From positions 1-57,247 of the forward strand of contig SSEV01000016.1 of the NCBI GenBank assembly GCA_008015095.1: a DNA stretch of 57,247 nucleotides, given 5' to 3'. The notes under the pieces were generated by a model. That model saw only the letters and a program-made list of their open reading frames with translations. It did not search any database and was not told the origin of the DNA. The translations under genes were made by a program, and so were the position numbers. Positions within the stretch are counted from its first letter, which is position 1. Every line of letters begins with the position of its first letter. Positions 14,949-55,542 of this stretch are shown in pieces. The stretch is from Lysobacteraceae bacterium (GTDB lineage: Bacteria; Pseudomonadota; Gammaproteobacteria; Xanthomonadales; Xanthomonadaceae).

Positions 14949-16865
14949 GTGAACGCCCGATCGTTTGCCCATTCCGATGTCGTCAATGCGAACGCCACGC
15001 ACACATCGCGCATTCGGGCCTGGGGGCTGCTCATCGCATTGGGCTCCGTATTGACCGCGGCCTGCGGACAGCAAGGCGCGGTCGCGGCCGGACCAGAAAT
15101 CGGCGCGAACACCCCCAGCAACCGCACGGCCAAGGCCGCGCCCGAGACGCGCAAGGCGCTGGCGCCGATCCAACCCGGCATTCCGCTCGATCTGAGTTAT
15201 GTCGATCGCAAGTCCCCTGCTTTCGCGCGCTTCAAGACCTGGGTCGACAGCGCCGTCGCCGGCCAGCCCGGCTATGCCTTCTCCGCTTACGACGCAGCGC
15301 TGCTCTATCGCCTCAACGGGCAACAGAAGTACTGCGATCTCGCGGTCAAAATGATCGAGAAGGAAGTCGCCGATGCCGAAGCGGCGATCGCCGAAGGCCG
15401 TGCGCCCGAGATCGCCGGCGACTCCTATCTCGAAGTGGGTCCGCGCATCGCCGCACTGTCGATGACATTGGACAGTTGCAAAGCGCAGATCGACCAAGCC
15501 AGGCGCGAACGTTGGTCGGCGTTCGCCGAACAGGCGGTCTGGAACGTCTGGCATCACTTGCGCGCCCATTGGGGCGGACGTCCGCGGCCCTGGACCGGCT
15601 GGTCGGTCGACAACCCGGGCAATAACTACTACTACAGCTTCGTCGAGGCCACGCTCTACTGGGCCCTGGTCAGTGGCAGCGACGAATGGATGCGCTTCCT
15701 CAATGAGGAAAAGATTCCGCCGCTGATCGCGTATTTCGCTGATTTGCGCGGCGGCGGCAGCCTGGAGGGCACCGGTTACGGAGCCGCGCATATGCGTCTG
15801 TTCGCACTGTACCGGCTGTGGCGCGACGCCACCGGCGAAGACATCGCCAACGCGAGCCCACATGTGGGCGACACCATCGCATATTGGGTGCACGCCACGG
15901 TGCCGGCGCTGGACCGCTTCGCGCCGATCGGAGATCAGTCGCGCAATTCAATGCCCGAACTCTACGACTACCACCGTCGCCTCGTATTGGAAGCGCGCGC
16001 GCTGAGTAAAGACCCTCAGGCCCAGGCGCTGGCTTCATGGTGGCTGCATCGTATTTCAGTGCCGAAGATGAGCAATGGCTTCAACACCCTGCACGATCTG
16101 TTGCCCGCGGGCGAGAAGGACGCTCCGCCGCCCGTCGCGCTGTTTCATCACGCGGTCGGCACCGGGCATCTGTTCGCACGCAGCGGCTGGGACCGCGACG
16201 CGATGTGGCTGGCCTTCGTGGCCGGCCCTTACAACGAGAGCCACGCGCATCAGGAACAAGGCGGCTTCACGCTCTTCGCGGGTGACTGGCTGAGCGTAAC
16301 CGGCAATGTCTGGAGCCACAGCGGCATCCAGCAAGGCACCGAGACCCATAACGTGCTGCGTTTCGAGCGCGCGGAGCCGATCGAGCGGCAATGCCACGCG
16401 CCGCAGAACGAACGCATCGTGCATCAATGCGTGCCGACAGTGTCGTCGATGCGGGTGACGCCAGGCGCGAATGGCGCCCTGACCGTCGAGGCCGATCTCG
16501 GCGGCGCCTATGGCGAAGACTCCGCGGTGAGAAGCTGGCGGCGCACCCTCGAATTCGGCGGGCGTCGCTTGCGCATCAGCGATCGGTATCGCATCGCCGG
16601 CGACACCCGGGCGATCTTCCAACTGCTGCTGCCGGTCGCCCCCCGCATCGACGGTCATCAGGCCCGCGCCGGCAACTTACGGGTGAAGGTCGTCTCGCCC
16701 GCCGACGCCCGCATGGATGTGGTTGAACTGCGCAGCCTGGATCCCGCCGAATTCAGGAATGGCTGGCGGCTCGACATCAGCGGCCCGGACTCGGCCACAA
16801 TCGCCCAGAAAAAAACTGAAAAATCAGGCGATTACGTTATCGAACTCGATGAAATCAAAAACTGA
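14949..16865 (+). CDS. Heparinase II/III-family lyase, lipoprotein (paralog 1)
   Basis: A 638-residue predicted polysaccharide lyase. GTG start; the signal peptide ends in a lipobox (GSVLTAAC), so lipidation and periplasmic or outer-membrane location are likely. An alpha/alpha-toroid region (~60-390: FKTWVDSAVAGQPGYAFSAYDAALLYR, PGNNYYYSF, GSLEGTGYG, YDYHRRLVLEA) precedes the beta-sandwich heparinase II/III domain (ESHAHQEQGGFTLF, SHSGIQQGTETHN). Family members cleave uronate-containing polysaccharides by beta-elimination using Tyr/His. The position inside the export operon suggests trimming or clearing of the EPS rather than catabolism. A close paralog follows. Confidence 0.85.
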   Translation: MNARSFAHSDVVNANATHTSRIRAWGLLIALGSVLTAACGQQGAVAAGPEIGANTPSNRTAKAAPETRKALAPIQPGIPLDLSYVDRKSPAFARFKTWVDSAVAGQPGYAFSAYDAALLYRLNGQQKYCDLAVKMIEKEVADAEAAIAEGRAPEIAGDSYLEVGPRIAALSMTLDSCKAQIDQARRERWSAFAEQAVWNVWHHLRAHWGGRPRPWTGWSVDNPGNNYYYSFVEATLYWALVSGSDEWMRFLNEEKIPPLIAYFADLRGGGSLEGTGYGAAHMRLFALYRLWRDATGEDIANASPHVGDTIAYWVHATVPALDRFAPIGDQSRNSMPELYDYHRRLVLEARALSKDPQAQALASWWLHRISVPKMSNGFNTLHDLLPAGEKDAPPPVALFHHAVGTGHLFARSGWDRDAMWLAFVAGPYNESHAHQEQGGFTLFAGDWLSVTGNVWSHSGIQQGTETHNVLRFERAEPIERQCHAPQNERIVHQCVPTVSSMRVTPGANGALTVEADLGGAYGEDSAVRSWRRTLEFGGRRLRISDRYRIAGDTRAIFQLLLPVAPRIDGHQARAGNLRVKVVSPADARMDVVELRSLDPAEFRNGWRLDISGPDSATIAQKKTEKSGDYVIELDEIKN

Positions 16866-17109
16866 ACACCGGCTAACCACATGGATCCATCGCACCTGCG
16901 ATCGATGCCGGCTATTCATTTTTCCGCACCCGCACACATAACCCGACCGTAACCGCTTTCTATACTGCCCCGGTCGTACTGCAGCGCATCACGCTGTGGT
17001 CGGCTGGTCGGGCCCGATCCAGGTCGGCTCCTAACCATTGCGCGGCACTTCTCGATCAGGACAGGGGAGCGCAACAGGGGGCGCATTGTTCGAACACGCT
17101 CGCAACGGA

Positions 17110-19077
17110 ATGCGACATAACAACCGAATTCACTCTATGGATCAGATCGACCGCACCCCGACCGCACACGGCAAGCCCCCCCATCCGCGCCTTCGCTATA
17201 CCCCTACTTTGCTGGCGGTCGCCATTCTTGCGGCTGCGGGAATCGCCGCGGCGGGCCCTGGCAGACTGATCCGCGAGTTCAAGACACTGGAATTCAAGAT
17301 CCGCTCGGTCGAAATCGAAGCGCCGAGCGCGGAACGCCGGGCTCTGATCGCGGAAGCACGATCCGCCGCACGCACGCTCACCGGGCGCACGCGCTCGACC
17401 TCGCGATCCTCCGCGCGCGTGCTCGGCGAGATCCCGATGAATCTGACGTATGTCGACACCGCGCGCACCAGCTATTCGCGCTTCCGCACCTGGGTCGACA
17501 ACGCCGTCAACGGCAGTCCGGGCTACGCTTACGAGGCCCGCGATTCCGCGCTGATGTACCGCATCACCCGCGACGCGAAATACTGCACGCACGCCCTGAA
17601 CATGGTCGAACAGCAGGTGACGCAGGCCGAGACCGCGATCGCCGCCAACCAAAACCCCGCGGTCGCCGGCGACTCCTATCTCGAAGTCGGCCCGATGATC
17701 GCCGATCTGGCCTACACCTACGATTCCTGTTTTTCGCGACTGACCGCCAGCCAGCGCACGCGTTGGTCAGCCTATGCGGAACAAGCGATCTGGAACGTAT
17801 GGAACTATCAGAGCGCCCGCTGGGGTACCCGCTCCGCGCCGTGGAGCGGCTGGTCGGTGAACAATCCAGGCAACAACTATCACTACAGTTTCATCGAAGC
17901 GACGATGACCTGGGCGCTGGCCTCGCGCAGCCAGACCTGGATGAGTTTCCTGCAAACCGACAAGTTGCCCAAGCTTGAAGCCTACTACCGCGCGATGCCG
18001 ACCGGTGGCAGCCTCGAAGGCACCGGTTACGGCACCGCGCAGATGCGCCTGTTCGAGCTGTACCGGATATGGAAAGACGCCACGGGCATCGATCTGGCCA
18101 ACGCCAACCCGCACGCCACCAACACTATCCGCTACTGGACCCATGCCACGGTGCCGACCCTGGACCGTTTCGCGCCGATTGGCGATCAGTCGCGCAACTC
18201 CGTGCCGGAACTGTACGACTACCATCGCCGTCTCGTGCTCGAAGCGCGCCATCTGGCCAGTGAACCCGCGGTGCACAGTATCGCCAGTTGGTGGTTGAAC
18301 AACATCAACATCCAGCAGATGTCGCAAGGCGCGAACTTCCGCTACGACCTGCTGCCCCCCGGCAGCGGAGGCCAACCGCCGTCCGAATTGCACTACCACG
18401 GTTCCGGAACCGGACATCTGTTCGCACGCAGCGGCTGGGATCGCAACGCGATGTGGCTGTCCTACGTCACCGGCACCTATAACGAAAGCCACGCGCACCA
18501 GGACCAGGGCGCCTTCACCCTATTCGCCCGCGACTGGCTGGCGGTGACCGAAAACATCTGGAGCCATAGCGGCATCCAGCAGGGCACCGAAGTACATAAC
18601 ATGATGCGTTTCGAGCGCAGCAACACCACGGCCACGCAATGCACCTCGCCCGCGAACGATCGCATCGTGCATCAGTGCGCCGACACCGTCTCGACGGTGA
18701 CGGTCACGCCTGGCGCCAACGGCGCGCTAACCGTGGTGTCGAACCTGACTCCGGCCTATCGCAACAATCCCGCGCTGACCAGCTGGACGCGCCGTCTCGA
18801 TTTCGCCGCGCGCAAACTCACCGTGCGCGACAACTTCGTGCTCGGCTCGGGGACCACTGCTTTCTTCCAGGTCCAGGTGCCGGTGCAACCCACGGTCAGC
18901 GGCAACACCATCACCGCGGGCAATCTGCGTATCCGCGTACTCGAACCGGCCGCGCCAACGATCACGTTGCGCAACTGGGCCACGGTCAACGCCAGTGAGT
19001 TCACCAAGGGCTGGCGGGTCGACATCGGCGGCGGGACCACCACTTACCTGGTGGAGCTGAACGAAGTCACGCCCTGA
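17110..19077 (+). CDS. Heparinase II/III-family lyase (paralog 2)
   Basis: A 655-residue paralog of the preceding lyase, sharing nearly every block: MNLTYVDTARTSYSRFRTWV, GDSYLEVGPMIADLAYTYDSC, SVNNPGNNYHYSF, GSLEGTGYGTAQMRLFELYR, DYHRRLVLEARHLAS, NESHAHQDQGAFTLF. It has no lipobox; LLAVAILAAAGIAAAG should be a signal peptide or anchor. The track's TTG at 17038 is unlikely; ATGs at 17110 and 17137 are both possible and neither has a strong ribosome site. It lies 244 nt after paralog 1, so it may have its own promoter. It ends before a perfect 13-bp hairpin. Confidence 0.85.
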   Translation: MRHNNRIHSMDQIDRTPTAHGKPPHPRLRYTPTLLAVAILAAAGIAAAGPGRLIREFKTLEFKIRSVEIEAPSAERRALIAEARSAARTLTGRTRSTSRSSARVLGEIPMNLTYVDTARTSYSRFRTWVDNAVNGSPGYAYEARDSALMYRITRDAKYCTHALNMVEQQVTQAETAIAANQNPAVAGDSYLEVGPMIADLAYTYDSCFSRLTASQRTRWSAYAEQAIWNVWNYQSARWGTRSAPWSGWSVNNPGNNYHYSFIEATMTWALASRSQTWMSFLQTDKLPKLEAYYRAMPTGGSLEGTGYGTAQMRLFELYRIWKDATGIDLANANPHATNTIRYWTHATVPTLDRFAPIGDQSRNSVPELYDYHRRLVLEARHLASEPAVHSIASWWLNNINIQQMSQGANFRYDLLPPGSGGQPPSELHYHGSGTGHLFARSGWDRNAMWLSYVTGTYNESHAHQDQGAFTLFARDWLAVTENIWSHSGIQQGTEVHNMMRFERSNTTATQCTSPANDRIVHQCADTVSTVTVTPGANGALTVVSNLTPAYRNNPALTSWTRRLDFAARKLTVRDNFVLGSGTTAFFQVQVPVQPTVSGNTITAGNLRIRVLEPAAPTITLRNWATVNASEFTKGWRVDIGGGTTTYLVELNEVTP

Positions 19078-40568: not shown

Positions 40569-42563
40569 GTGTGCGGTATCGCCGGTTTCTGCGGAACAGA
40601 TGTCGTTCCGGACAATGCGCATCCGCTGCTGCAGCGGATGATCCGCACGCTCGCCCATCGCGGTCCCGATGGCTACGGCTTCCATGCCGACACAGGTATC
40701 GGCCTCGCGCACGCGCGGCTGTCGATCATCGACCTGAGCACCGGCGATCAACCGATCCATAATCCGCGGCGCACGGTCTGGACCGTGTTCAACGGCGAAA
40801 TCTTCAATTACGTCGAACTGCGCCGCGAACTCGAAGCGGAAGGCCGCACGTTTTACACCCGTTCCGACACCGAAGTGATCGTGCACTTGTACGATCGCGA
40901 CGGCGATCGTTTCGTCGAACATCTCAACGGCCAATTCGCGATCGCGCTCTGGGACGGCGAACGTCGACGCCTGGTGCTGGCCCGCGATCGCGCCGGTATT
41001 CGTCCGCTGTATCTGGCGCGCGACGACGACCGGCTCTGGTTCGCGTCGGAAGTCAAAGCCCTGCTCGCGGCGCTGCCGCAGCGCGCCACGATCGATACAG
41101 TCGGATTGGCCGAGACCTTCAGCACATGGTCTCCGATCGAACCGCATACTTTGTATCGCGGCATCGACAGCCTGCCGCCCGGACATCTGCTGACGATCGA
41201 GGCCGACGGACGCGAACAGTTGCGCCGTTACTGGGACTGGACGTTTCCCGACGCGGCGGACACCGCGCCCGCACGCTTCCCGCTGAGCGTGGAGGCGGCG
41301 ACGACCGAGTTGCGTGAGTTGCTGATCGACGCGGTGCGGCTGCAATTGCGCGCCGACGTTCCGGTCGGCGCCTATCTCAGCGGCGGCCTCGATTCATCGG
41401 GCATCGTCGCCATGATCCGCGGCTTTACCGACACCCCGGTGCGCACCTTCTCGGTCGCGTTCGAAGACGGCGAATTCGACGAGAGCGAACACCAGCAGGC
41501 GATGGTGCGTCATCTGGGCACAGACCACACCACCCTGCGCTGCGGCCGGCGCGCTATCGGCGAAGCGTTCCCGCGACTGATCCGACACACCGAAACACCG
41601 GTGCTGCGGACGGCGCCTGTCCCGCTGATGCTGCTTTCCGGCAGCGTGCGCGAGCATGGCTACAAGGTCGTGCTGACCGGCGAAGGCGCAGACGAGGTCT
41701 TCGGCGGCTACGACCTGTTCAAGGAAGCCAAGGTGCGCCGGTTCTGGGCGCGGCAACCGCAATCCAAACTGCGGCCACGCCTGCTGGAGCGGCTCTATGG
41801 CTATCTGCCCAATTCGCCGGTGCGTAACCCGGCCTTCGCGCAGTCGTTCTTCGGTCAGGGCATGGAGCATATGCGACGCCCCATCTTCGCTCATGCGCCA
41901 CGCTGGATCACTTCGCAACGCGCCCTCGGCCTGTTGTCGTCCGAGCTGCGCGCGGAGCTCGGCGACTGGGATGTGTTCGCTCGATTCGAGGCCACGCTGC
42001 CCCAGGACATCGGCGGCTGGAGCCCGCTGGCGCAGGACCAGTATGTCGAGGCCAAGTCGTTGCTTGCGGGCTATCTGCTGTCCTCGCAAGGCGACCGGGT
42101 CGCAATGGCGAATTCGATCGAAGGCCGCTTCCCGTATCTCGACCATCGCGTGATCGAATTCGCCAACCGGCTGCCGCCAAGCTACAAAATCCGTGGACTC
42201 ACCGAAAAATACCTGCTCCGCCGCGCGTTGGCCGATCTATTGCCGCAGGACATCGTCACCCGCACCAAACAGCCCTATCGCGCGCCCGACAGCGCCAGCT
42301 TCTTTTTCGATGGGCAGCCTCTGGATTACGTCGCGGACCTGATGAGCGCCGAACGCATCCGCGCAGCGGGCTACTTCGATGCGGCGGCGGTAGGCCGCTT
42401 GTTCGAGAAATGCCGCGCCGGACGCGCCGCCGGGTTTGCCGACAACCAGGCCTTCGTCGGCGTGCTCTCTACCATGCTGGTGCACGAGATGCTGCGCAAC
42501 GGCGCATTCGCCCGCGAGTCCGCCGTTCCATCGGCTTCGGCCGCACCAGCCGCTGCCATCTGA
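40569..42563 (+). CDS. asnB: Asparagine-synthase-type amidotransferase (glutamine-hydrolysing)
   Basis: A 664-residue class II amidotransferase. GTG start, so Met/Cys is MCGIAGFCG with the nucleophile Cys2; the glutaminase domain shows AHRGPDGYG and FNGEIFNYVELR. The synthetase domain has the PP-loop SGGLDSSGIV (~274), GEGADEVFGGYDLF and EGRFPYLDHRV. The gene resembles the amidotransferase of XrtA-type EPS loci (TIGR03108-like, from memory). It may supply ammonia for amidating a sugar acid or a carrier-bound acid instead of making asparagine. AGGGGG lies ~12 nt before the start. It is followed by a methyltransferase. Confidence 0.9.
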   Translation: MCGIAGFCGTDVVPDNAHPLLQRMIRTLAHRGPDGYGFHADTGIGLAHARLSIIDLSTGDQPIHNPRRTVWTVFNGEIFNYVELRRELEAEGRTFYTRSDTEVIVHLYDRDGDRFVEHLNGQFAIALWDGERRRLVLARDRAGIRPLYLARDDDRLWFASEVKALLAALPQRATIDTVGLAETFSTWSPIEPHTLYRGIDSLPPGHLLTIEADGREQLRRYWDWTFPDAADTAPARFPLSVEAATTELRELLIDAVRLQLRADVPVGAYLSGGLDSSGIVAMIRGFTDTPVRTFSVAFEDGEFDESEHQQAMVRHLGTDHTTLRCGRRAIGEAFPRLIRHTETPVLRTAPVPLMLLSGSVREHGYKVVLTGEGADEVFGGYDLFKEAKVRRFWARQPQSKLRPRLLERLYGYLPNSPVRNPAFAQSFFGQGMEHMRRPIFAHAPRWITSQRALGLLSSELRAELGDWDVFARFEATLPQDIGGWSPLAQDQYVEAKSLLAGYLLSSQGDRVAMANSIEGRFPYLDHRVIEFANRLPPSYKIRGLTEKYLLRRALADLLPQDIVTRTKQPYRAPDSASFFFDGQPLDYVADLMSAERIRAAGYFDAAAVGRLFEKCRAGRAAGFADNQAFVGVLSTMLVHEMLRNGAFARESAVPSASAAPAAAI

Positions 42564-42582: not shown

Positions 42583-43512
42583 ATGCATTGGCGCATCAAA
42601 GGCGTATTGCAGAAGATCCTCGGCGTGATGCCCTACGGGCATGCGTTGCACTACCGTCTGCAACGCAACTACGGCGGCATGCGCGACATCCGCCGCGAAT
42701 GCACGATGAAGATCGACGACTGGGCGATCATGGCCGAGCACTTGCGCGATGCGGGCCAGCGCATTCCCGGTGCGCGGCTGGCGGAAATCGGCACCGGCTG
42801 GTACCCGACACTGCCTTTGGCCTGCTATCTCGGCGGAGCCTCGGAAGTGCATACCTTCGATTTGAACCGCCTCATCAAGCCCGAACTGGTGGCCCGTTGC
42901 ATCGAAGTCCTCGGCGAGCAACTGCCGCGGATCGCCGAAGTCAGTGGAGCGGATGCGTCATCCGTGCACGCGCGCTACCGACGTCTGCAGGCCGCAACCG
43001 ACACTTCGGACCTCACTCGCCTGAGCGATGGCGTGATCCGGTATCACGCCCCCATCGATTTCACCGCCTCCGGCCTGCCAGACGCTGCAGTCGATGTCGT
43101 GTTCTCGAACAGCGTGCTCGAACACGTCCCGCCCGAGGTCGTGCGCCCGATCTACAACGCGGCGATGCGTCTGCTCGCGCCTGGCGGACTGATGTTCCAT
43201 TCGGTGAATTGCGGCGATCACTACGCCTATATCGACCCTACAATCCACCAGTTGCACTACCTCCGATTCTCGGACGCGCAATGGAAATTCTGGAACAACG
43301 CATTCCTTTATCAGAACCGTCTGCGTGCGCACGTTTTCGTCGACGCCGCCCGCGACGCCGGCTTCGAGATCGCGCTTGACACATCGAACCCGCGCCCCGA
43401 ACGGCTGAAGCAGCTCGCAGAAATGCCCGTGCACGCCCAATTCGCGCACATCCCCCCAGAAAAACTGTGTCTGAGCACGGTGGATTTCATCGGACGCAAG
43501 CCGACCGTCTGA
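42583..43512 (+). CDS. SAM-dependent methyltransferase
   Basis: A 309-residue protein with a weak but clear class I fold: LAEIGTGWYPTLPLACYLGG (motif I), TFDLNRLIKPELV (motif II) and VVFSNSVLEHVPPEVV followed by LAPGGLMFHSVNC (motif IV onward). The N-terminus has GVMPYGHALHYRLQRNYGGMRDI, often seen in glycan-locus methyltransferases. It lies ~20 nt after the amidotransferase stop and starts at the ATG at 42583, so it is probably co-transcribed with it. Function inferred; the substrate is not predictable. Confidence 0.78.
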   Translation: MHWRIKGVLQKILGVMPYGHALHYRLQRNYGGMRDIRRECTMKIDDWAIMAEHLRDAGQRIPGARLAEIGTGWYPTLPLACYLGGASEVHTFDLNRLIKPELVARCIEVLGEQLPRIAEVSGADASSVHARYRRLQAATDTSDLTRLSDGVIRYHAPIDFTASGLPDAAVDVVFSNSVLEHVPPEVVRPIYNAAMRLLAPGGLMFHSVNCGDHYAYIDPTIHQLHYLRFSDAQWKFWNNAFLYQNRLRAHVFVDAARDAGFEIALDTSNPRPERLKQLAEMPVHAQFAHIPPEKLCLSTVDFIGRKPTV

Positions 43513-43764: not shown

Positions 43765-44973
43765 TCATTCGGATTGCGTCGCCGGCTGTGCGGGACGCAG
43801 TCGCATCAACTTGCCCTCATCCTCGTCCACCAGCAGCCAGATCGATCCGTCGGGGCCTTCGCGCACGTCGCGGATACGCAAGCCGCGATCGGCGATCAGG
43901 CGCTCTTCGTGCACGATGCGATCGCCGTCGAGTTCCAGTCGGATCAACGCATGCCCAGCCAGCGCGCCGACGAAGAGATTGCCCTCCCACTCCGGAAAGG
44001 CCTTGCCGCTGTAGAACAACATGCCGCTCACGGCGGGCGAGACTTCCCACACGTGATGCGGCGGCTCCATGCCCGCTGCGGATTTGCCGACCGATCCGGG
44101 GACTGCAGATCCGCTGTAATCGCGGCCATGGGTAATCACCGGCCATCCGTAGTTGCGGCCGGGCTCCGGAATATTCAATTCGTCGCCGCCCATCGGGCCG
44201 TGCTCGCTGGTCCAGAGCTTGCGCGTAACCGGATGCAACGCAGCCCCCTGCATGTTGCGGTGACCGTACGACCAGATTTCAGGACGCACGCCCCTGCGCT
44301 TGACGAAAGGATTGTCTTCGGGAATACGGCCATCCGGCCAGATCCGCACCAGCTTGCCCTGCAATTTGTCCAGTTCCTGCGCGGTCGGCGCGACTCTGTT
44401 CTCGCCCTGCGTCACGAACAGATGGCCTGCATCGTCGAACACAAGCCGGGAACCGACGTGCGTGCCGCTGGAAAGTTTGGGTTCCTGACTGTAGATCACG
44501 TCGACATCGCGCAACGCATCGCCTTCGAGTCGCGCCCGCGCGACCGCGGTGCCGGCCTTGTTGCCACGAAAATTCGGTTCCGCGAAAGAGAAATAGACCT
44601 GATTGTCCGTGCCGAATTGCGGCGAGAGCACGATATCCAACAATCCGGCCTGCCCGTCGACGAAGATCGCAGGTAACCCGGCGATCGGGTCGGACACACT
44701 GCCATCGACGCCGATCCGGCGCAGTCTGCCGGGCCGTTCGCTCACCAGCATCGCCCCATCCGGCAGAAAGGCCAGGGACCACGGTCGCTCCAGCCCGGTC
44801 ACGACCTCCATGAGTTCGAAGCGAGCTTTTTCGGACGCGAGCGCGACCGCTTGGGCACCCGCCACCGTACGAGGTGGTTCGGCCGGGGGCGTCGGAGCTT
44901 GCCGGCAACCGGCGGATATGCCCGCCCCGACAAGGAGCAAAGCTGAAAACAGCGCCTTTCTGCGATTTTTCAT
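43765..44973 (-). CDS. PQQ-dependent sugar dehydrogenase (soluble aldose type), lipoprotein
   Basis: A 402-residue six-bladed propeller of the glucose/sorbosone dehydrogenase family. The signal peptide ends in a lipobox (GAGISAGC). Family motifs are GLERPWSLAFLPDGAMLVSERPGRLR, GLLDIVLSPQF, YFSFAEPN, GSRLVFDDAGHLFVTQGEN, YGHRNMQGAALHP and WTSEHGPMGGDELN. It likely oxidises aldoses in the periplasm using PQQ and Ca2+. No PQQ-synthesis genes are visible in the window. It is divergent from the acyl-carrier operon (~151 nt between starts). Probably unrelated to EPS synthesis. Confidence 0.9.
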   Translation of the reverse strand: MKNRRKALFSALLLVGAGISAGCRQAPTPPAEPPRTVAGAQAVALASEKARFELMEVVTGLERPWSLAFLPDGAMLVSERPGRLRRIGVDGSVSDPIAGLPAIFVDGQAGLLDIVLSPQFGTDNQVYFSFAEPNFRGNKAGTAVARARLEGDALRDVDVIYSQEPKLSSGTHVGSRLVFDDAGHLFVTQGENRVAPTAQELDKLQGKLVRIWPDGRIPEDNPFVKRRGVRPEIWSYGHRNMQGAALHPVTRKLWTSEHGPMGGDELNIPEPGRNYGWPVITHGRDYSGSAVPGSVGKSAAGMEPPHHVWEVSPAVSGMLFYSGKAFPEWEGNLFVGALAGHALIRLELDGDRIVHEERLIADRGLRIRDVREGPDGSIWLLVDEDEGKLMRLRPAQPATQSE

Positions 44974-45124: not shown

Positions 45125-45373
45125 ATGCAACAGCGACAGCGCATCAAACAGTATCTGCTTCAGAACTTTCTTTTCTCTAACGACGAAAGCGCGCTCAAAG
45201 ATGACGCCTCGCTGATCCGCGGCGGCATTCTCGATTCGACCGGCATCTACGAACTCATCATGCATCTGGAGGAAGAGTTCAAGATCTCGATCGCCCCGGA
45301 AGAGATGATTCCCGAGAATTTCGACACGATCGAAGCGGTGGACCGCTTCGTCTCGCGCAAACTCGCGGGGTGA
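45125..45373 (+). CDS. Acyl carrier protein
   Basis: An 82-residue, four-helix carrier protein with the phosphopantetheine attachment serine in GGILDSTGI and acidic helix II (ELIMHLEEEFKI). It follows GGGGGACCGGT just before the ATG at 45125. It is not the primary FabF-type ACP: the motif DSTG replaces DSLD. Such ACPs sit beside AMP-forming ligases in XrtA-type EPS loci. Its stop (TGA) overlaps the GTG of the next gene by 4 nt, so it is the leader of a coupled four-gene operon. Confidence 0.9.
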   Translation: MQQRQRIKQYLLQNFLFSNDESALKDDASLIRGGILDSTGIYELIMHLEEEFKISIAPEEMIPENFDTIEAVDRFVSRKLAG

Positions 45374-46926
45374 GCGAGGGCGGCATGTCCTCCTCTGCGA
45401 CTCAAGTTCCGGCGCCGATTTCGGTCCCAGCCCGGGTCGCCGCGATCGCGAACCGCGAACCGCAGCGCATCGCCATCGTCGCCAACGAGCGACGCATCAG
45501 TTATGGCGAGCTGTGGGCGGAGTCGGTCGCGTTCGCGCGCGCGCTTCGCGCACGCGGCCTACGTGCGGGCGATCGCGTCGCGATCTTGCTGCCGAACCGG
45601 ATCGAAGCGGTGGTCGCCTGTTACGGTTGCTGGCTGGCGGGCGGGATCGTCGCGGCGCTGAACGCGCAGGCCAAATCCCGCGATTTCAGCGCATGGCTCG
45701 CGCATTGCGACGCCGCTCACGTCGTCTACGAGTCCACCCATGTCGACGCGGCGGATGCAGTCGCTCATTTGCCCGCGGAAGTCGTGCGCTGGCCGATCGA
45801 TCCGCAGCACGGTCTCGACACAGTCCCCGTCACGGAAGTAGGAGCGCACGACGGCATCGACGGCGTCATGCTCGATCACGATGCGCTGATCCTGTACACC
45901 TCGGGGACTACCGGCGCGCCCAAAGGCGTGACCCTGACCCACCGCAATCTGATCGCGAACGCGGAAGCGGTCGTGCGTTACCTCGAACTGGACGAGCGCG
46001 ACAGCGTGCTCTCGATCCTGGCCTTCTACTATGCTTATGGCGCATCGGTACTGCACACGCATCTGATCGTCGGCGCGCGGATCGTGCTTGCGCCCAACTT
46101 GTTATTTCCGCACCTGCTGATGGACGCGATCGCGCGCGAACGCATCAGCGGATTCTCCGGCGTACCCTCGACCTTCGCGCTGCTGCTGGAGAGGGTGAAA
46201 CTTGCCGATTACGACCTCTCCTCGCTCCGCTATCTCACCCAGGCCGGCGGCGCGATGGGTCGCGGCCTGACCCAGCGCCTGCGCGCCGCGCTGCCGAATC
46301 CGCAGCTGTTCGTGATGTACGGTCAGACCGAAGCGACCTCGCGCCTTACTTGGTTGCCGCCGCAACGGTTGGACGAAAAACTAGGCTCGGTCGGCATTCC
46401 GATCGATGGCGTGCGCCTGCGTATCGTGCATGAGAACGGCGCCGAAGCCGCCATCGGCGATATCGGTGAGGTCTGGGCCAGCGGCGCCAATGTGATGCGC
46501 GGCTATTGGGACAACGCCGAGGCCACGGCCACGGTAATACGTGACGGCTGGTTGCGCACCGGCGATATGGGCCACCTCGACGCCGACGGTTTCCTATGGC
46601 TGGCCGGTCGGCGCAGCGACATGATCAAGACCGGGGCGCACCGCGTGCACCCGAGCGATATCGAAGAGGCGATCGCGGAAATGCCCGGCGTCAGCGAGGT
46701 CGCTGTCGTCGGCGTCGATGACGATATGCTCGGCCAGGTGGTGAAAGCCTTCGTGGTCGCCCCCGGGCTTCCGCCCAACAGCGAGAACATGATCAAAGCC
46801 CATTGCCGGGAACGGCTGGCCAGCTACAAGATTCCCCGCGATATCGAATTTGTCAGCGCACTCCCGCGCACCGCTTCCGGCAAGGTTCGCCGCGCCGCCC
46901 TCCTCGACCCAACGACTACCGCATGA
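45370..46926 (+). CDS. AMP-forming acyl/amino-acyl-ACP ligase
   Basis: A 518-residue ANL-family enzyme. It shows the P-loop LYTSGTTGAPKGVTLTH, FVMYGQTEATSRLTWLP (A5), the A7 motif LRTGDMGHLDADGFLWL, GRRSDMIKTGAHRVHP (A8) and the catalytic lysine segment RTASGKVRR (A10). It probably adenylates a carboxylic acid and loads it onto the adjacent ACP. It resembles the XrtA-system-associated acyl-CoA ligase (TIGR03098-like, from memory). GTG at 45370 overlaps the ACP stop; an ATG at 45385 with GAGGG is an alternative. The acid substrate is unknown. Confidence 0.88.
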   Translation: MSEGGMSSSATQVPAPISVPARVAAIANREPQRIAIVANERRISYGELWAESVAFARALRARGLRAGDRVAILLPNRIEAVVACYGCWLAGGIVAALNAQAKSRDFSAWLAHCDAAHVVYESTHVDAADAVAHLPAEVVRWPIDPQHGLDTVPVTEVGAHDGIDGVMLDHDALILYTSGTTGAPKGVTLTHRNLIANAEAVVRYLELDERDSVLSILAFYYAYGASVLHTHLIVGARIVLAPNLLFPHLLMDAIARERISGFSGVPSTFALLLERVKLADYDLSSLRYLTQAGGAMGRGLTQRLRAALPNPQLFVMYGQTEATSRLTWLPPQRLDEKLGSVGIPIDGVRLRIVHENGAEAAIGDIGEVWASGANVMRGYWDNAEATATVIRDGWLRTGDMGHLDADGFLWLAGRRSDMIKTGAHRVHPSDIEEAIAEMPGVSEVAVVGVDDDMLGQVVKAFVVAPGLPPNSENMIKAHCRERLASYKIPRDIEFVSALPRTASGKVRRAALLDPTTTA

Positions 46927-47924
46927 ACGCCGACCGCAAACCTCTCGACTGGAACGTCCTCGATCTCGACTACGCACAGGAAGCCGACCGCATCGCCGCG
47001 CGACTGCGCGAGATCACTGCGCGACAACTGCACCGACGCGGACTGGTCGTCGCCATTTCAGGCGGCATCGACAGCTCGGCCAGCGTATCGTTGGCGGTGC
47101 GGGCCCTGGGGCCAGAACGCGTGTTCGGCCTGATCCTCCCCGAGCGCGATTCTTCCGACGACAGCGCGGCGCGCGCCAATATTCTGGCGGCGCACCTGGG
47201 CATCCGCACCGAAACCGTCGATATCGCGCCTGCGCTGGAGGCCATCGGTTGCTATCGCGCGCGCGATGCGGCGGTGCGTAACGCGCTGCCCGAATACGGC
47301 GACGGCTGGAAATTCAAGATCGTGATCGACGGCGGCATCGAAGGCCGGTTCAATCGATTCCGTCTGATCGCCGAAGCGCCTGACGGCGCCCAACATGACC
47401 GCGACCTGGCCCTCGCCGACTACCTCACCATCGTCGCCGCCACGAATTTCAAGCAGCGCATCCGCAAGACGCTCGAATACTTTCACGCCGACCGACTCAA
47501 TTACGCCGTGGTCGGCACGCCGAACCGGCTGGAATACGATCAAGGATTCTTCGTCAAGAACGGCGACGGTTCTGCCGATGTCAAACCGATCGCGCATCTG
47601 TACAAATCCCAGGTGTATGGCATGACCCGTCATCTCGGCCTGCCCGAGCGCGTCTGCGCCGCAGTGCCGACCACCGACACCTACAGCCTCAGCCAGGGGC
47701 AGGACGAGTTCTATTTCGCCTTGCCCTATCGCGAAATGGATCTGGCGGTGTACGCGCTCAACCACGGTTATACGGCGGCGGAACTCGCTGCGGCCCTGAG
47801 CATCGACGAAACCCGCGCCAACGCCATCTACGACGATATCCGCAACAAACGACGCACGACCAAGTACCTGCATCTACCGCCGGTGCTGGTGGTCGACGTG
47901 CCAGAGCCGCACCGCGACGCATGA
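46923..47924 (+). CDS. NAD-synthase-like ATP-pyrophosphatase (stand-alone ligase domain)
   Basis: A 333-residue NadE-family protein lacking the N-terminal glutaminase of the larger NAD synthases. The PP-loop is VAISGGIDSSASVSLA; LPERDSSDDSAARANILAAHLGI, GTPNRLEYDQGFFVKNGDGSADV, KSQVYGMTRHLGLPERV and SQGQDEFYFALPY match the NAD synthase core. The variant motifs and a central insert (EYGDGWKFKIVIDGGIEGRFNRF) suggest a changed substrate. Like NadE it should adenylate a carboxylate and amidate it with ammonia. Lying between an ACP ligase and a GNAT, it may amidate a carrier-bound or sugar acid. ATGA overlaps at both ends. Confidence 0.8.
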   Translation: MNADRKPLDWNVLDLDYAQEADRIAARLREITARQLHRRGLVVAISGGIDSSASVSLAVRALGPERVFGLILPERDSSDDSAARANILAAHLGIRTETVDIAPALEAIGCYRARDAAVRNALPEYGDGWKFKIVIDGGIEGRFNRFRLIAEAPDGAQHDRDLALADYLTIVAATNFKQRIRKTLEYFHADRLNYAVVGTPNRLEYDQGFFVKNGDGSADVKPIAHLYKSQVYGMTRHLGLPERVCAAVPTTDTYSLSQGQDEFYFALPYREMDLAVYALNHGYTAAELAAALSIDETRANAIYDDIRNKRRTTKYLHLPPVLVVDVPEPHRDA

Positions 47925-48979
47925 GCGCCACGGAGGGCCCGCAGTACCGGGTACGCGATGGCGATATCGCGCGTGACCGCGAGGCGGTGCTCGCGGTGTG
48001 GCGCGGCAATCTCGGCCAGGATGCGCGCATGGCGCGCAAGTACGACTGGTTTTATGGTCGCGCGCCCTCCGGCGCGCCACTGCTGCAGTTGCTCGAACAC
48101 GAGGCAGGCGCGGCGCCGGTCGGCGTCTGCGCTGCGGGGCGCAGACGGATGTCGCATCGGGGTCAGCCACTGTGCGCCGGCGTGTTGGTCGATCTGGCCG
48201 TCGCTCCCGATCACCGCTCGCTCGGACCGGCCTTGATGTTGCAACAAGGCCTGTTCGCCGCCGGCAAGCGTGAACTCGATCTGCTCTACGGTTTCCCCAA
48301 TCCGAAAGCCGCTCCGGTGTTCAAACGCATCGGCTATCGCAAATTCGCCGATATGACCCGCTATGCGCGCGTGGTGCGGCATGCGAGTTACGCGCGCAGA
48401 CGACTAGCCGAAAAATTGCCGGCGCCACTGGCTGCGGCGATGGCCGCTATGGCCGGCCCCGCGATCGATTTGCTCAAGCGGCTCGACGATGCGCGACGTT
48501 GGCCAGCTGCGCGTCGCTATCGCGTCGAATGGCACGAGCGCGCGCCCGACATCGAATCCCTCTGGCGCGATTCGGCGAAACCCGACGCTTTGACCGCTGT
48601 TCGCGACGCCGCATATCTGCGTTGGCGCTTCGACGAGGCCCCGGATGCGCGATTCCGTCACTTGCTGTTGCGCGATGGCGACACTTCCTGCGCGTGGTTC
48701 GCAACCACGCACGACGATCACACACTACAGGTCCATGATTTCTGGACGCTTGACGGCGCGACCCCGGCGCCCGAGATCATCGCCGCGCTCCTGCGCGCCG
48801 CCTACGCGATGGGCCATGCGACGGTTTCGCTGGAACTGGCGACTAGCGCGCAACGGCTGCAGCCATGGCTGACGCTCGGATTCAGCGACCGCGGACAACG
48901 CCCGTTATTCGGCTATTGGGCGCAGATCGCGGACGGCTCGCCCGACCTGCATATCGTCTCGGCCGACGAGGACGAATAG
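47921..48979 (+). CDS. GNAT-family N-acetyltransferase
   Basis: A 352-residue protein with a GNAT fold at the N-terminus (VLVDLAVAPDHRSLGPALMLQQGL corresponds to the motif A strand-helix; YGFPNPKAAPVFKRIGYRKF is a motif B-like segment). A second half with AAYLRWRFDEAPDARFRHLLLRDG and HDFWTLDG resembles another GNAT-like domain, so it may be a duplicated acetyltransferase. It is the last gene of the operon (4-nt overlap upstream). It may transfer an acyl group from the ACP to an amino sugar; this is inference from location. Confidence 0.75.
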   Translation: MSATEGPQYRVRDGDIARDREAVLAVWRGNLGQDARMARKYDWFYGRAPSGAPLLQLLEHEAGAAPVGVCAAGRRRMSHRGQPLCAGVLVDLAVAPDHRSLGPALMLQQGLFAAGKRELDLLYGFPNPKAAPVFKRIGYRKFADMTRYARVVRHASYARRRLAEKLPAPLAAAMAAMAGPAIDLLKRLDDARRWPAARRYRVEWHERAPDIESLWRDSAKPDALTAVRDAAYLRWRFDEAPDARFRHLLLRDGDTSCAWFATTHDDHTLQVHDFWTLDGATPAPEIIAALLRAAYAMGHATVSLELATSAQRLQPWLTLGFSDRGQRPLFGYWAQIADGSPDLHIVSADEDE

Positions 48980-51477: not shown

Positions 51478-52872
51478 TCAGCGCGCGCCACGCCCGAACA
51501 GGACAACTTCGACCGTCTGCAGCATGATCATCAGATCGAACAGGAGGCCATGGTTCTTGACATAGAACAGGTCAAATTTCAACTTCTCGTTGGCGTCGCG
51601 CACCGACGCTCCATACGGGTAGCGCAACTGCGCCCAACCTGTCAGGCCCGGCTTCACCGAATGGCGCACGCCGTAATAGCGCACTTCGTTGTTGAGCATT
51701 TCCACAAATTGGGGACGCTCCGGACGCGGGCCGACAAAGCTCATTTCGCCCTTCAGCACGAGGAACAACTGCGGCAGTTCGTCGAGCCGGGTCTTGCGGA
51801 TGAACTTGCCGACGCGCGTGGTGCGGTCGTCGTTCTGCTGCGCCCAGACCGCTTTGCCGTCGCTTTCCGCATCGACCCGCATGCTGCGGAATTTCACCAT
51901 CTCGAAGTGCCGGCCATGTTCGCCGACACGGGTCTGCCGATACAGCACCGGCCCCGGCGATTCCAGGCGCACCGCAAGGGCAACCAGCAACATCGCCGGC
52001 CAACTCACGACCAGCAACGCGATCGCCGCCAGCAGGTCGAAGAAGCGCTTGGTCAACCGGCGCGGGGTCGAATAATCGAATTCGCCGGAAAACACCAGCC
52101 AGGACGGATCGGCGATGCTCAGCTGCACCATCCCGGCCTCGCGCTCGAAAAAGCTCGACAAATCGGTGACCAGCACACCCTGCTGCACGCAGACGAGCAT
52201 CTGCTCCATCGGCATGCCGCCACGACGCTCGTCCGGCGCGATCACGATTTCGTCGACATCCATCCGCTCGGCGATCTGGCTGATGGTTTCCCCGCTATTG
52301 ATCAACAACTCATCGTCGACCACGATTGGCTGGTTCGGCACCGGCACGAAACCGAGGATATTGAACGATTGGCGATCGCTTTTGCGGCGCAGGCGCGTAT
52401 TGATCAGATTGGCCTTCTCGCCCGCGCCATAGATCAGCACGCGCTGCTTGAGCATCGTCGCGGCGGACAGATGCAACACCAGCAGGCGCACGAGCAGAAT
52501 CGCACAGAACCCGATACTCAATGCCAGCGCCAACACGCCGCGCCCGATGTAGGTTTGCGGCACTGCGTAGTAGATGACCAGCAACGCGACGCCGCCGAAC
52601 ATGAAAGATACCGACAGCCTCAGCAGGAAGTCGATCTTGCGATGGCGCACGTAGGCCTGATACAGGCCGAAGGCGAGCATCGACCCGGTGACGCACAGCG
52701 CTACGAGCAACGCCCGCGGCAGAATTCCGCCGACGAAGGAATCGAACGCCGAAAGATCGTTCAAATATCGCAGTCGCGCCGCGCCCAGTACCGACAAAAC
52801 GACTACGGCCATTTCGATCAGCCACAGGCCTCGTAACGCGTGTTTCTGCCTGCTCGCTCGAATCGTCTTCAT
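51478..52872 (-). CDS. Polyprenyl-phosphate sugar phosphotransferase (EpsB/WcaJ-like)
   Basis: A 464-residue initiating enzyme with four N-terminal membrane helices (GLWLIEMAVVVLSVLGAARL and following), a CoA-binding-like domain (RVLIYGAGEKANLINTRL) and a C-terminal bacterial sugar transferase: KRFFDLLAAIALLVVSW, SPGPVLYRQTRVGEHGRHFEMVKFRSM, KTRLDELPQLFLVLKGEMSFVGPRPE and VKPGLTGWAQLRY. It should put the first sugar-phosphate on undecaprenyl phosphate and so start the repeat unit. The track ORF is too long; the ATG at 52872 has AGGGGG upstream. It resembles the XrtA-associated EpsB family (TIGR03013-like, from memory). Confidence 0.92.
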   Translation of the reverse strand: MKTIRASRQKHALRGLWLIEMAVVVLSVLGAARLRYLNDLSAFDSFVGGILPRALLVALCVTGSMLAFGLYQAYVRHRKIDFLLRLSVSFMFGGVALLVIYYAVPQTYIGRGVLALALSIGFCAILLVRLLVLHLSAATMLKQRVLIYGAGEKANLINTRLRRKSDRQSFNILGFVPVPNQPIVVDDELLINSGETISQIAERMDVDEIVIAPDERRGGMPMEQMLVCVQQGVLVTDLSSFFEREAGMVQLSIADPSWLVFSGEFDYSTPRRLTKRFFDLLAAIALLVVSWPAMLLVALAVRLESPGPVLYRQTRVGEHGRHFEMVKFRSMRVDAESDGKAVWAQQNDDRTTRVGKFIRKTRLDELPQLFLVLKGEMSFVGPRPERPQFVEMLNNEVRYYGVRHSVKPGLTGWAQLRYPYGASVRDANEKLKFDLFYVKNHGLLFDLMIMLQTVEVVLFGRGAR

Positions 52873-53423: not shown

Positions 53424-53813
53424 ATGCCCGGCAAATCCCGCAAATTGCCCAAACCCACGCCGGCTGAACTCGATCTGCTGCGCCTGTTGTGGCGGCTTGG
53501 CCCCAGTACGGTCAAGCAAGTGCACGAGGCGCAGCTGCAGGAAAGACCGGGCGCGACCTACGCCACCGTACTGCGCCAATTGCAGATCATGCATGGCAAA
53601 GGCCTGCTCAGCCGCGACGAGCGCCTGCGTTCACATGTCTATGCGGCTGTCCAGGCGCAGGACGCGTTGCAAACCAGTCTGCTCGGAGATCTGATTCACA
53701 AAGCCTTCTCCGGCTCAGGCAAAGATCTGGTCATGGCGGCTTTGCGCGGCCATGTGAGCGAAGAAGAGCGCGCGGAGATCCAGCGCTTCCTGGAGGAGAC
53801 CAGCGATGAATGA
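53424..53813 (+). CDS. BlaI/MecI/CopY-family transcriptional repressor
   Basis: A 129-residue winged-helix repressor: PTPAELDLLRLLWRLGPSTVKQVHEAQ (helix-turn-helix entry), TYATVLRQLQIMHGKGLL and a C-terminal dimerisation region ending SEEERAEIQRFLEET. It should repress its own operon with the M56 peptidase that follows (8-nt overlap) until the sensor signals. No beta-lactamase is next to it, so its targets may be envelope-stress genes. The ATG at 53424 has no clear Shine-Dalgarno, so a short leader is possible. Confidence 0.92.
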   Translation: MPGKSRKLPKPTPAELDLLRLLWRLGPSTVKQVHEAQLQERPGATYATVLRQLQIMHGKGLLSRDERLRSHVYAAVQAQDALQTSLLGDLIHKAFSGSGKDLVMAALRGHVSEEERAEIQRFLEETSDE

Positions 53814-55542
53814 CGCTATCGAAACATTGGGCTCGGTACTGCTGCATTTCCTCTGGCAAGGTGCCGCCATCGCCCTCTCCGCATGGCTTGCTCTACGGCT
53901 GCTGCGCCAGGCGCGGCCTCAGGCGCGATACGCCGTTCTGTGCGCGGCGATGTCCGCCTGTCTGCTCGCCCCCGTGATCTCGTTGTGGCGGGCCTTGGCG
54001 GTACCGATGGCGACCCGATCGCCATGGGACCAAGTTACGCGACTGCCATGGACGGATGTTTTATCGCCCGCATCGAACGTAGTGCCGGCGGGACCGTGGC
54101 CGCCCGAGGTTCTGCCCTGGGTTGTTGCGATCTGGACCGTCGGGGCAGCTGTCATGTTGCTGCGGATCGTCAGCGGCCTGCGCTGGGTCAGACGCGTGCG
54201 CCACGAGGCCGGCCGCTCGGTCCCTGATGGTTGGCAAGCGCGATTCGACGCGCTGGCCCGTCGTTTCGGCCTGGACCGGCTGCCACTCAGAATAGGGCCG
54301 GATGGCGAAGGCCCGATGACCATCGGCGTGTGGCGCCCGGTGGTGCTGGTGCCGGCCGCTCTATTCGCGAATATGCCGGTCGAATTGCTCGAAGCCCTGC
54401 TCGCGCACGAGTTGGCTCACATTCGGCGGCACGATTACCTGATCAATCTGCTTCAACGCATCACCGAAGCCCTGCTGTTCTATCACCCCGCGATCTGGTG
54501 GCTGTCGCGGCGACTGACGATCGAACGCGAGCTGATCGCCGACCGTCTCGCCGCGGACGCACTGGGCGAGCCGCGCAAGCTGGCGCTCGCACTCAGTCAG
54601 CTGGATCGTCTGCAGTTGTCCACCATCCCCCATCTCGCGCAGACCGCGCACGGAGGTTCGCTGATGTCCCGTATTGAAGCCCTGGTTCGCCCCGGCCGTC
54701 TTTCAGGCGGCGGTCTTGTGCTGTTCCCGGTGATCGGATTACTCGCAGTGGGGGTCGCTTTCTATGTCTATGCGGACGCGAAGCGCACACCGATCATACC
54801 GATCGTAGGGCATGCGGCCGCGCTGCCCGAATCGGTCGGGCCTGGCCCCGATGCGATCGCGATGACGGACAGCGTGGAAGAGGACGGCATCGAAAGCAGC
54901 GATGAAGATTTCATCCGCTTCCGCCATCAGGGCGGCACCTATGTGGTGCGCGATCCGGCGATCTTGGCGCGTGTCAAGCGAGAAGAGGCCACCGCCGAAG
55001 CCTACACCGCACAAGTGCGAGCGCTCGAAGCGGAAATGCAGGCGCAAAGCGAACGGATCGAAGCGATCGGACACGGCATGGGCGCCGCCCGTCCCGAACA
55101 TATGGACCAGACTCCGGCAATGCGCGAAGCCGTCGAAAAGCTCGAAGCGCTCGCACGGCAACAGGCCGAACTCGCCGAGCAGCACGCGATGCAGGCGAAC
55201 CACGCGTCGGGCTCGGAAGCCAAGGTCGCCGAGCAGACCCGCGAACTCGAAGCCATGGACCGCAAGATGCAAGCACTGGATGTACAGATCCAGCAACAGC
55301 AGTCGATCGTGGAACAACAAAGCGCGCAGATGGCGGCGCGAATGGATGCGATGGGCGATGAAATCGAGCGCGCGACGAAACCGATGGAAGAACTTGCCCG
55401 GAAAATGGATGTCCTCGCAATCAAGCAGCAGCAAGCCTACGCGCAAGCGGATCAGCGCATCCGTACCATGCTCGAACAGGCCATACGCGACGGAAAGGCC
55501 CAGCCGGCAGACGCATCATCGCCGTCATCGAAGAAGGATTGA
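53806..55542 (+). CDS. M56-family metallopeptidase, BlaR1-like without penicillin-sensing domain
   Basis: A 578-residue membrane peptidase. The N-terminal half has several membrane helices and the zinc site HELAHIRRHD (~200) with ERELIADRLAADAL downstream as the likely third ligand region. A further membrane helix (LVLFPVIGLLAVGVAFYVY) is followed by a ~230-residue periplasmic tail that is Gln/Glu/Met-rich and predicted coiled coil (~385-560). The penicillin-binding domain of BlaR1/MecR1 is absent, so the signal is not a beta-lactam bound that way. It probably cleaves or relieves the adjacent BlaI-like repressor. Confidence 0.9.
   Translation: MNDAIETLGSVLLHFLWQGAAIALSAWLALRLLRQARPQARYAVLCAAMSACLLAPVISLWRALAVPMATRSPWDQVTRLPWTDVLSPASNVVPAGPWPPEVLPWVVAIWTVGAAVMLLRIVSGLRWVRRVRHEAGRSVPDGWQARFDALARRFGLDRLPLRIGPDGEGPMTIGVWRPVVLVPAALFANMPVELLEALLAHELAHIRRHDYLINLLQRITEALLFYHPAIWWLSRRLTIERELIADRLAADALGEPRKLALALSQLDRLQLSTIPHLAQTAHGGSLMSRIEALVRPGRLSGGGLVLFPVIGLLAVGVAFYVYADAKRTPIIPIVGHAAALPESVGPGPDAIAMTDSVEEDGIESSDEDFIRFRHQGGTYVVRDPAILARVKREEATAEAYTAQVRALEAEMQAQSERIEAIGHGMGAARPEHMDQTPAMREAVEKLEALARQQAELAEQHAMQANHASGSEAKVAEQTRELEAMDRKMQALDVQIQQQQSIVEQQSAQMAARMDAMGDEIERATKPMEELARKMDVLAIKQQQAYAQADQRIRTMLEQAIRDGKAQPADASSPSSKKD

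Follow-up and report, generated by a model that had tools for sequence, protein, structure and literature searches.

A widespread carrier-protein cassette with AsnB-type and NadE-like enzymes in a Lysobacteraceae exopolysaccharide locus, with a possible role in making amide-bearing acyl groups

The DNA analysed here (the window) is a stretch of 57,247 nucleotides (nt), contig SSEV01000016.1 of the Lysobacteraceae bacterium assembly GCA_008015095.1, and carries an exopolysaccharide (EPS) locus. Positions 45125-48979 hold four open reading frames (ORFs) on the same strand, where an earlier reading made from the letters without database searches (the sequence-only reading) had placed them. The first gene (45125..45373, + strand) encodes an acyl/peptidyl carrier protein (ACP) of 82 aa with a PF00550 match, whose phosphopantetheine serine, Ser38 in the motif DSTG, has its codon at 45236-45238. 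The second gene (45385..46926 from its likely ATG start, + strand) encodes an AMP-forming acyl ligase of 513 or 518 aa (PF00501, PF13193). The product of the third gene (46923..47924, + strand; NF002048, PF02540) is a predicted NadE-like ammonia-dependent amide ligase of 333 aa belonging to the NF002048 subfamily. The last gene (47921..48979, + strand) encodes a protein of 352 aa, predicted from its structure model to be a tandem-GNAT N-acyltransferase.

The sequence-only reading described all three junctions in this run as 4-nt overlaps. Both ATGA overlaps stand. The one between the ligase and NadE-like genes (46923) also occurs in 13 of the 14 close relatives, and the one between the NadE-like and GNAT genes (47921) is real, with a spacing that varies in relatives from -4 to about +10 nt. 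The GTGA at the junction of the ACP and ligase genes (45370) is present in the window sequence but in none of the 14 close relatives, and in 12 of them the nearest ligase start (11 ATG, 1 GTG) lies 3-15 nt past the ACP stop. Since the position of the ATG at 45385 matches the start of the relatives, it is preferred to the GTG at 45370, and this GTGA overlap probably reflects a wrong start call. A promoter scan found none, and the terminator scan gave a count no higher than in shuffled sequence.

The gene for a glutamine-dependent amidotransferase of the AsnB type (40569..42563, + strand; TIGR01536, 505.9 bits against a cut-off of 267) lies upstream of the run. The sequence-only reading regarded it as a possible source of ammonia about 2.6 kb away. 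The distance (2.56 kb) was correct; the role of a mere supplier does not fit an enzyme that has its own intact synthetase site and is a core partner of the other genes. This partnership is evident from 75 loci of NadE-like genes with at least 6 kb on either side of the gene, in which partners were scored within 6 kb; the loci are not independent, many being from Lysobacteraceae. The AsnB, ACP, AMP-ligase and NadE-like genes occur together in 66 of the 75 loci, and the carriers of this core set include alpha-, beta- and gammaproteobacteria as well as Myxococcota. Because the same set is found in distant phyla, its grouping is not due to chance, and AsnB is a member of the core cassette. Of 59 neighbourhood genomes, the own one included, 15 encode a full-length NadE-like protein; across the phylum the figure is 15 of 398. 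At least 578 relatives came from a profile search against named genomes.

The order of the genes shifts between lineages, while the membership of the set is constant. Most loci show the order AsnB-ACP-ligase-NadE. The order AsnB-ligase-ACP-NadE occurs in several Burkholderiales, NadE-AsnB-ligase-ACP in one Mesorhizobium, and divergent arrangements in other lineages. Among the 40 loci with all five genes, the median identity to the window proteins is 80% for the NadE-like protein, 75% for AsnB, 60% for the ACP, 59% for the ligase and 49% for the GNAT protein. This gradient, only suggestive in itself, would fit an amide-forming core that stays constant while acid and acceptor vary more. An otherwise complete cassette (L053 and L066, G250:C81) has one in-frame TAG in the NadE-like gene, which indicates either a pseudogene or a sequencing error. 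Three cassettes (L173, L181 and L185) are plasmid-borne and two of them, L173 and L181, have transposase genes within 10 kb, so the cassette may move between strains.

The catalytic motifs of the ACP, the ligase, AsnB and the NadE-like protein are all kept, as judged for the first three from 84-102 sequences per protein. Ser38 of the ACP, in its DS motif, is at least 95% conserved (102 sequences), and the nearest solved relatives of this protein are free-standing peptidyl and D-alanyl carriers. The same level of conservation is seen for the ATP loop and catalytic Lys505 of the ligase, and for Cys2 and the SGGLDSS motif (S271-S277) of AsnB (84 sequences), as expected of a glutamine-dependent enzyme. 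The families that best match the ligase are acyl/aryl ligases. In one sequence alignment the alpha-amino-binding Asp of amino-acid-activating domains has no counterpart in the ligase (FYYAYG versus FSFDGS), and for this reason its substrate is probably an acid other than an alpha-amino acid. Two phosphopantetheinyl transferase genes are present in the own genome.

A relative of the cassette lies on the plasmid pSymB of Sinorhizobium meliloti 1021. Its order is asnB-ACP-ligase-nadE, and the identities to the window proteins are 52% for AsnB, 37% for the ACP, 35% for the ligase and 54% for the NadE-like protein. The single AMP-ligase gene of pSymB (PF00501, 1452018-1453106) is located inside this cassette. 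According to PMC7232532, which reports the work of Ramos-Vega et al. 2009 (doi 10.1099/mic.0.022079-0), SMb20650 (ligase) and SMb20651 (ACP) form a cotranscribed pair on pSymB. PMC7232532 further states that SMb20651 is converted into the holo-ACP with AcpS, that it is acylated in E. coli when SMb20650 is co-expressed, and that SMb20650 is unable to substitute for FadD in growth on oleate. As the cassette ligase is the sole AMP-ligase of pSymB, SMb20650 and SMb20651 are almost certainly the cassette pair, the locus tags being matched by elimination. When pSymB was searched with PF00550, the weak cassette ACP was missed and two other carriers came up (at 677.6 and 633.2 kb), neither with an adjoining AMP-ligase, so that the identification rests on the single PF00501 match. 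The sequence-only reading depended on a carrier that is phosphopantetheinylated and loaded by its ligase; in the S. meliloti relative both are reported (PMC7232532). The S. meliloti cassette differs from that of the window in lying outside an EPS locus and in the place of its GNAT-like and HemK-type genes. These two genes overlap (L171, 25389-27334), are about 10 kb away from the operon and adjoin a gene annotated as lipopolysaccharide biosynthesis; they are possibly a split part of the same pathway.

The NadE-like protein scores 459.6 bits against NF002048 (cut-off 313), a family named 'NAD(+) synthase'. The closest folds to its model (predicted local distance difference test, pLDDT, 85.6) are ammonia-dependent NAD synthetases, with which it also shares the ATP loop, and its P-loop is nearly invariant. 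It differs from NadE in an insertion of 45-50 residues at about 109-170, which forms strands in the model and contains the invariant residues W129 and K132, in a loop that reads PTTDT in place of the PSAGL of the aligned NAD synthetases, and in its cassette context. A separate NadE gene is present in the own genome and in 20 of 20 other carriers tested. A role as the housekeeping NAD synthetase is disfavoured by these separate genes, and judging from the sequences the database label of an NAD-making enzyme is probably wrong.

The GNAT protein of the window has no family match above cut-off and no NCBIfam match, which includes the XrtA-associated FemAB family TIGR03019. Its model (pLDDT 94.5) shows a tandem GNAT with two domains spanning the whole chain, and matches Eis-type and N-myristoyltransferase (NMT) structures with Z scores of 19-21 over 277-314 residues and a root-mean-square deviation of 3.1-6.1. 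The two-domain fold is the same as in these N-acyltransferases, although the identity is only 8-14%. In Eis and NMT the catalytic carboxylate is at the C-terminus of the chain. The acidic C-terminus of the window protein (D349, D351) is invariant and in the alignment coincides with the chain ends of the Eis-type and NMT proteins. The fold of the model lends support to the acyltransferase function that the sequence-only reading had assigned. FemAB structures do not appear among the matches listed for the model, an absence that carries no weight. In 51 of the 75 loci a GNAT-family or FemAB gene lies no more than 6 kb away; FemAB (TIGR03019) is nearby in 4 of the 75. A hypothetical protein encoded immediately 5′ of asnB forms one family in Shinella, Roseateles, a Mesorhizobium and Nitratireductor; this family is a distant branch of the window GNAT (hhalign 90%, E 1.7e-6, 296 columns).

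A further recurrent gene encodes a methyltransferase of the PrmC/HemK type, found in or next to the cassette in 18 of 75 loci and also adjoining the operon of Mesorhizobium ciceri. PrmC methylates the amide nitrogen of a glutamine side chain. Because PrmC acts on an amide nitrogen, the recurrence of a PrmC-like gene gives independent, if circumstantial, support for an amide product. In four Luteimonas cassettes (L099, L100, L103 and L106, about 6.8-8.0 kb) the PrmC-like gene is inserted between the ACP and NadE-like genes, in the usual position of the ligase, and no ligase was found within 6 kb. At L046 and L047 (about 5.3-16.6 kb) the main cassette is flanked by an extra ACP beside a PrmC-like gene and by an extra ligase-ACP pair, whose ligase is 35% identical to that of the window; the arrangement looks as if two acids were loaded.

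The sequence-only reading placed the operon inside an EPS locus and noted that an ACP and ligase are known from XrtA-type loci. The EPS setting applies to the window and to Lysobacteraceae: in many of their genomes the cassette has a fixed place and gene order within a large EPS locus, where its neighbours include glycosyltransferases, a TIGR03013 sugar transferase and a polysaccharide deacetylase. A Shinella cassette also adjoins glycosyltransferases and an EPS transport gene. The cassette is, however, not confined to such loci: in S. meliloti, M. ciceri and Nitratireductor it forms an operon by itself, at a distance from polysaccharide genes, and the stand-alone cassettes of Sinorhizobium and Mesorhizobium are on plasmids. 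The product of the cassette may have uses in different contexts. An XrtA label is rejected. A search for exosortase (PF09721) gave nothing in the own genome (75% complete), and 14 of 20 other carriers lack it. The ligase and the amidotransferase fall below the cut-offs of their XrtA families (TIGR03098, the best match of the ligase, 362.2 bits against 592.35; TIGR03108, 435.8 against 816.9). The XrtA-type pyridoxal phosphate-dependent decarboxylase (TIGR03099) is above cut-off in only 1 of 18 carriers, on the contig of the cassette and with no cassette genes around it. XrtA/PEP-CTERM loci resemble the window in combining a ligase, an ACP and an amidotransferase of related type with related EPS genes, including a TIGR03013 sugar transferase above cut-off at 51478-52869; the window has the NadE-like enzyme instead of the decarboxylase.

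We propose, at roughly even odds (slightly under one in two), that the AsnB, ACP, AMP-ligase and NadE-like proteins, usually joined by a tandem-GNAT or FemAB protein, build a carboxamide-bearing acyl group on the carrier and hand it to an amine. A phosphopantetheinyl transferase would convert the ACP into its holo form, as seen by others only in the S. meliloti relative. The ligase would then adenylate a carboxylic acid (an alpha-amino acid being improbable) and load it on the carrier, an acylation likewise seen only in that relative. AsnB, drawing on glutamine, and the NadE-like enzyme, using ammonia, would each activate a carboxylate with ATP and turn it into an amide, whose nitrogen a PrmC-type enzyme may methylate in some lineages. 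The tandem GNAT would finally transfer the acyl group from its carrier onto a primary amine. All steps from amidation onwards are inferred, as are the nature of the acid, the point at which it is amidated and the acceptor, for which an EPS amino sugar is the likeliest candidate in the window. A carrier-bound line for amidation and N-acylation was the core of the sequence-only reading, and it is partly supported: its carrier route by the conserved Ser38 and Lys505, and its amide chemistry by two amide-forming enzyme families and the recurrent PrmC-type amide-nitrogen methyltransferase. The passive AsnB has to be given up. In Vibrio cholerae O1, perosamine is tetronylated by an ACP, a ligase and an acyltransferase encoded in the O-antigen locus, which pass a carrier-bound acid to an amino sugar. 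The likeness is one of principle; no AsnB or NadE-like enzyme is known to belong to that system.

Several observations weigh against this proposal. The operon stands alone in the three rhizobial and related lineages named above, no GNAT or FemAB gene was found within 6 kb in 24 of the 75 loci, and two amide-forming enzymes look like one too many unless there are two carboxylates, or two substrates, to amidate. The stand-alone operons are also an argument for a cassette that makes a free small molecule, such as an amide-type osmolyte, a signal or a natural product, with its placement in EPS loci incidental or secondary. AsnB matches the N-acetylglutaminylglutamine amidotransferase family as well, below cut-off. 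This explanation, the least improbable of the alternatives, is unlikely, given the fixed position and order of the cassette in the EPS loci of many Lysobacteraceae genomes and the EPS-related neighbours in Shinella.

It is quite improbable that the ligase loads a fatty acid in a lipid-type N-acylation line yielding an N-acyl amine or a lipid-decorated glycan. The acyl/aryl-CoA ligase class of the enzyme and the resemblance of the GNAT protein to NMT would suit such a line, as would the acylation of SMb20651 in E. coli, but PMC7232532, which reports the latter, also gives the failure of SMb20650 to replace FadD on oleate. Moreover, two amide-forming enzymes and the PrmC-like methyltransferase would be left without a role. 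A Dlt- or pyrrolyl-type line, in which the ligase loads an amino acid and a GNAT or FemAB protein transfers the aminoacyl group, is very improbable. The ACP does resemble peptidyl and D-alanyl carriers, and FemAB genes lie near a few cassettes; the missing alpha-amino-binding Asp, seen in one alignment, and the acyl/aryl families of the ligase speak against it. Least credible is a true second NAD synthetase that lies in the locus by accident. The NF002048 score and the NadE fold would allow it, but the separate NadE genes, the insertion, the altered loop and the linkage to AsnB, ACP and ligase genes across phyla speak against it.

The other genes of the EPS locus of the window are mainly common to near relatives. 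Between AsnB and the ACP operon lies a class I methyltransferase gene (42583..43512, + strand; PF08241), which is common to close relatives only (8 of 80 named loci). It is followed by a glucose/sorbosone dehydrogenase-like gene (43765..44973, - strand; PF07995, 445 bits). As this gene, on the opposite strand, separates the two, AsnB is outside the ACP operon in the window. Two adjacent similar ORFs (638 and 679 aa) at 14949-19077 resemble tandem paralogues of the polysaccharide-lyase or heparinase type. Beside the EPS locus, at 53424-55542, two overlapping genes resemble a BlaI/MecI-type repressor and a BlaR1-type M56 peptidase, as judged from the sequence.

The combination of NadE-like, ACP and AsnB genes was not described in the literature searched, most subscription papers being outside the reach of the search, and the cassette as a whole seems undescribed. 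Papers on the EPS of Zoogloea, Aquincola, Janthinobacterium and Rubrivivax report asparagine synthases in EPS or floc loci, without the present gene set. Tentatively, and with less confidence than in the proposed pathway, the cassette can be viewed as a widespread, undescribed system of rhizobial plasmids and proteobacterial EPS loci, in which three ATP-dependent carboxylate-activating enzymes (an AMP-ligase, an AsnB type and a neofunctionalised NadE type) around one carrier would make a carboxamide or N-methylcarboxamide acyl group. One conserved pathway would then join genes that are annotated apart, and misleadingly, as asparagine synthase, acyl carrier protein, acyl-CoA ligase, NAD(+) synthase and hypothetical protein. 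In the model symbiont S. meliloti, an acyl carrier protein that has long been an orphan would gain a set of partners and a testable chemistry. The proposal predicts that many soil and EPS-forming bacteria contain a decoration or metabolite with an amide group, and that their NadE homologue has lost the ability to make NAD.

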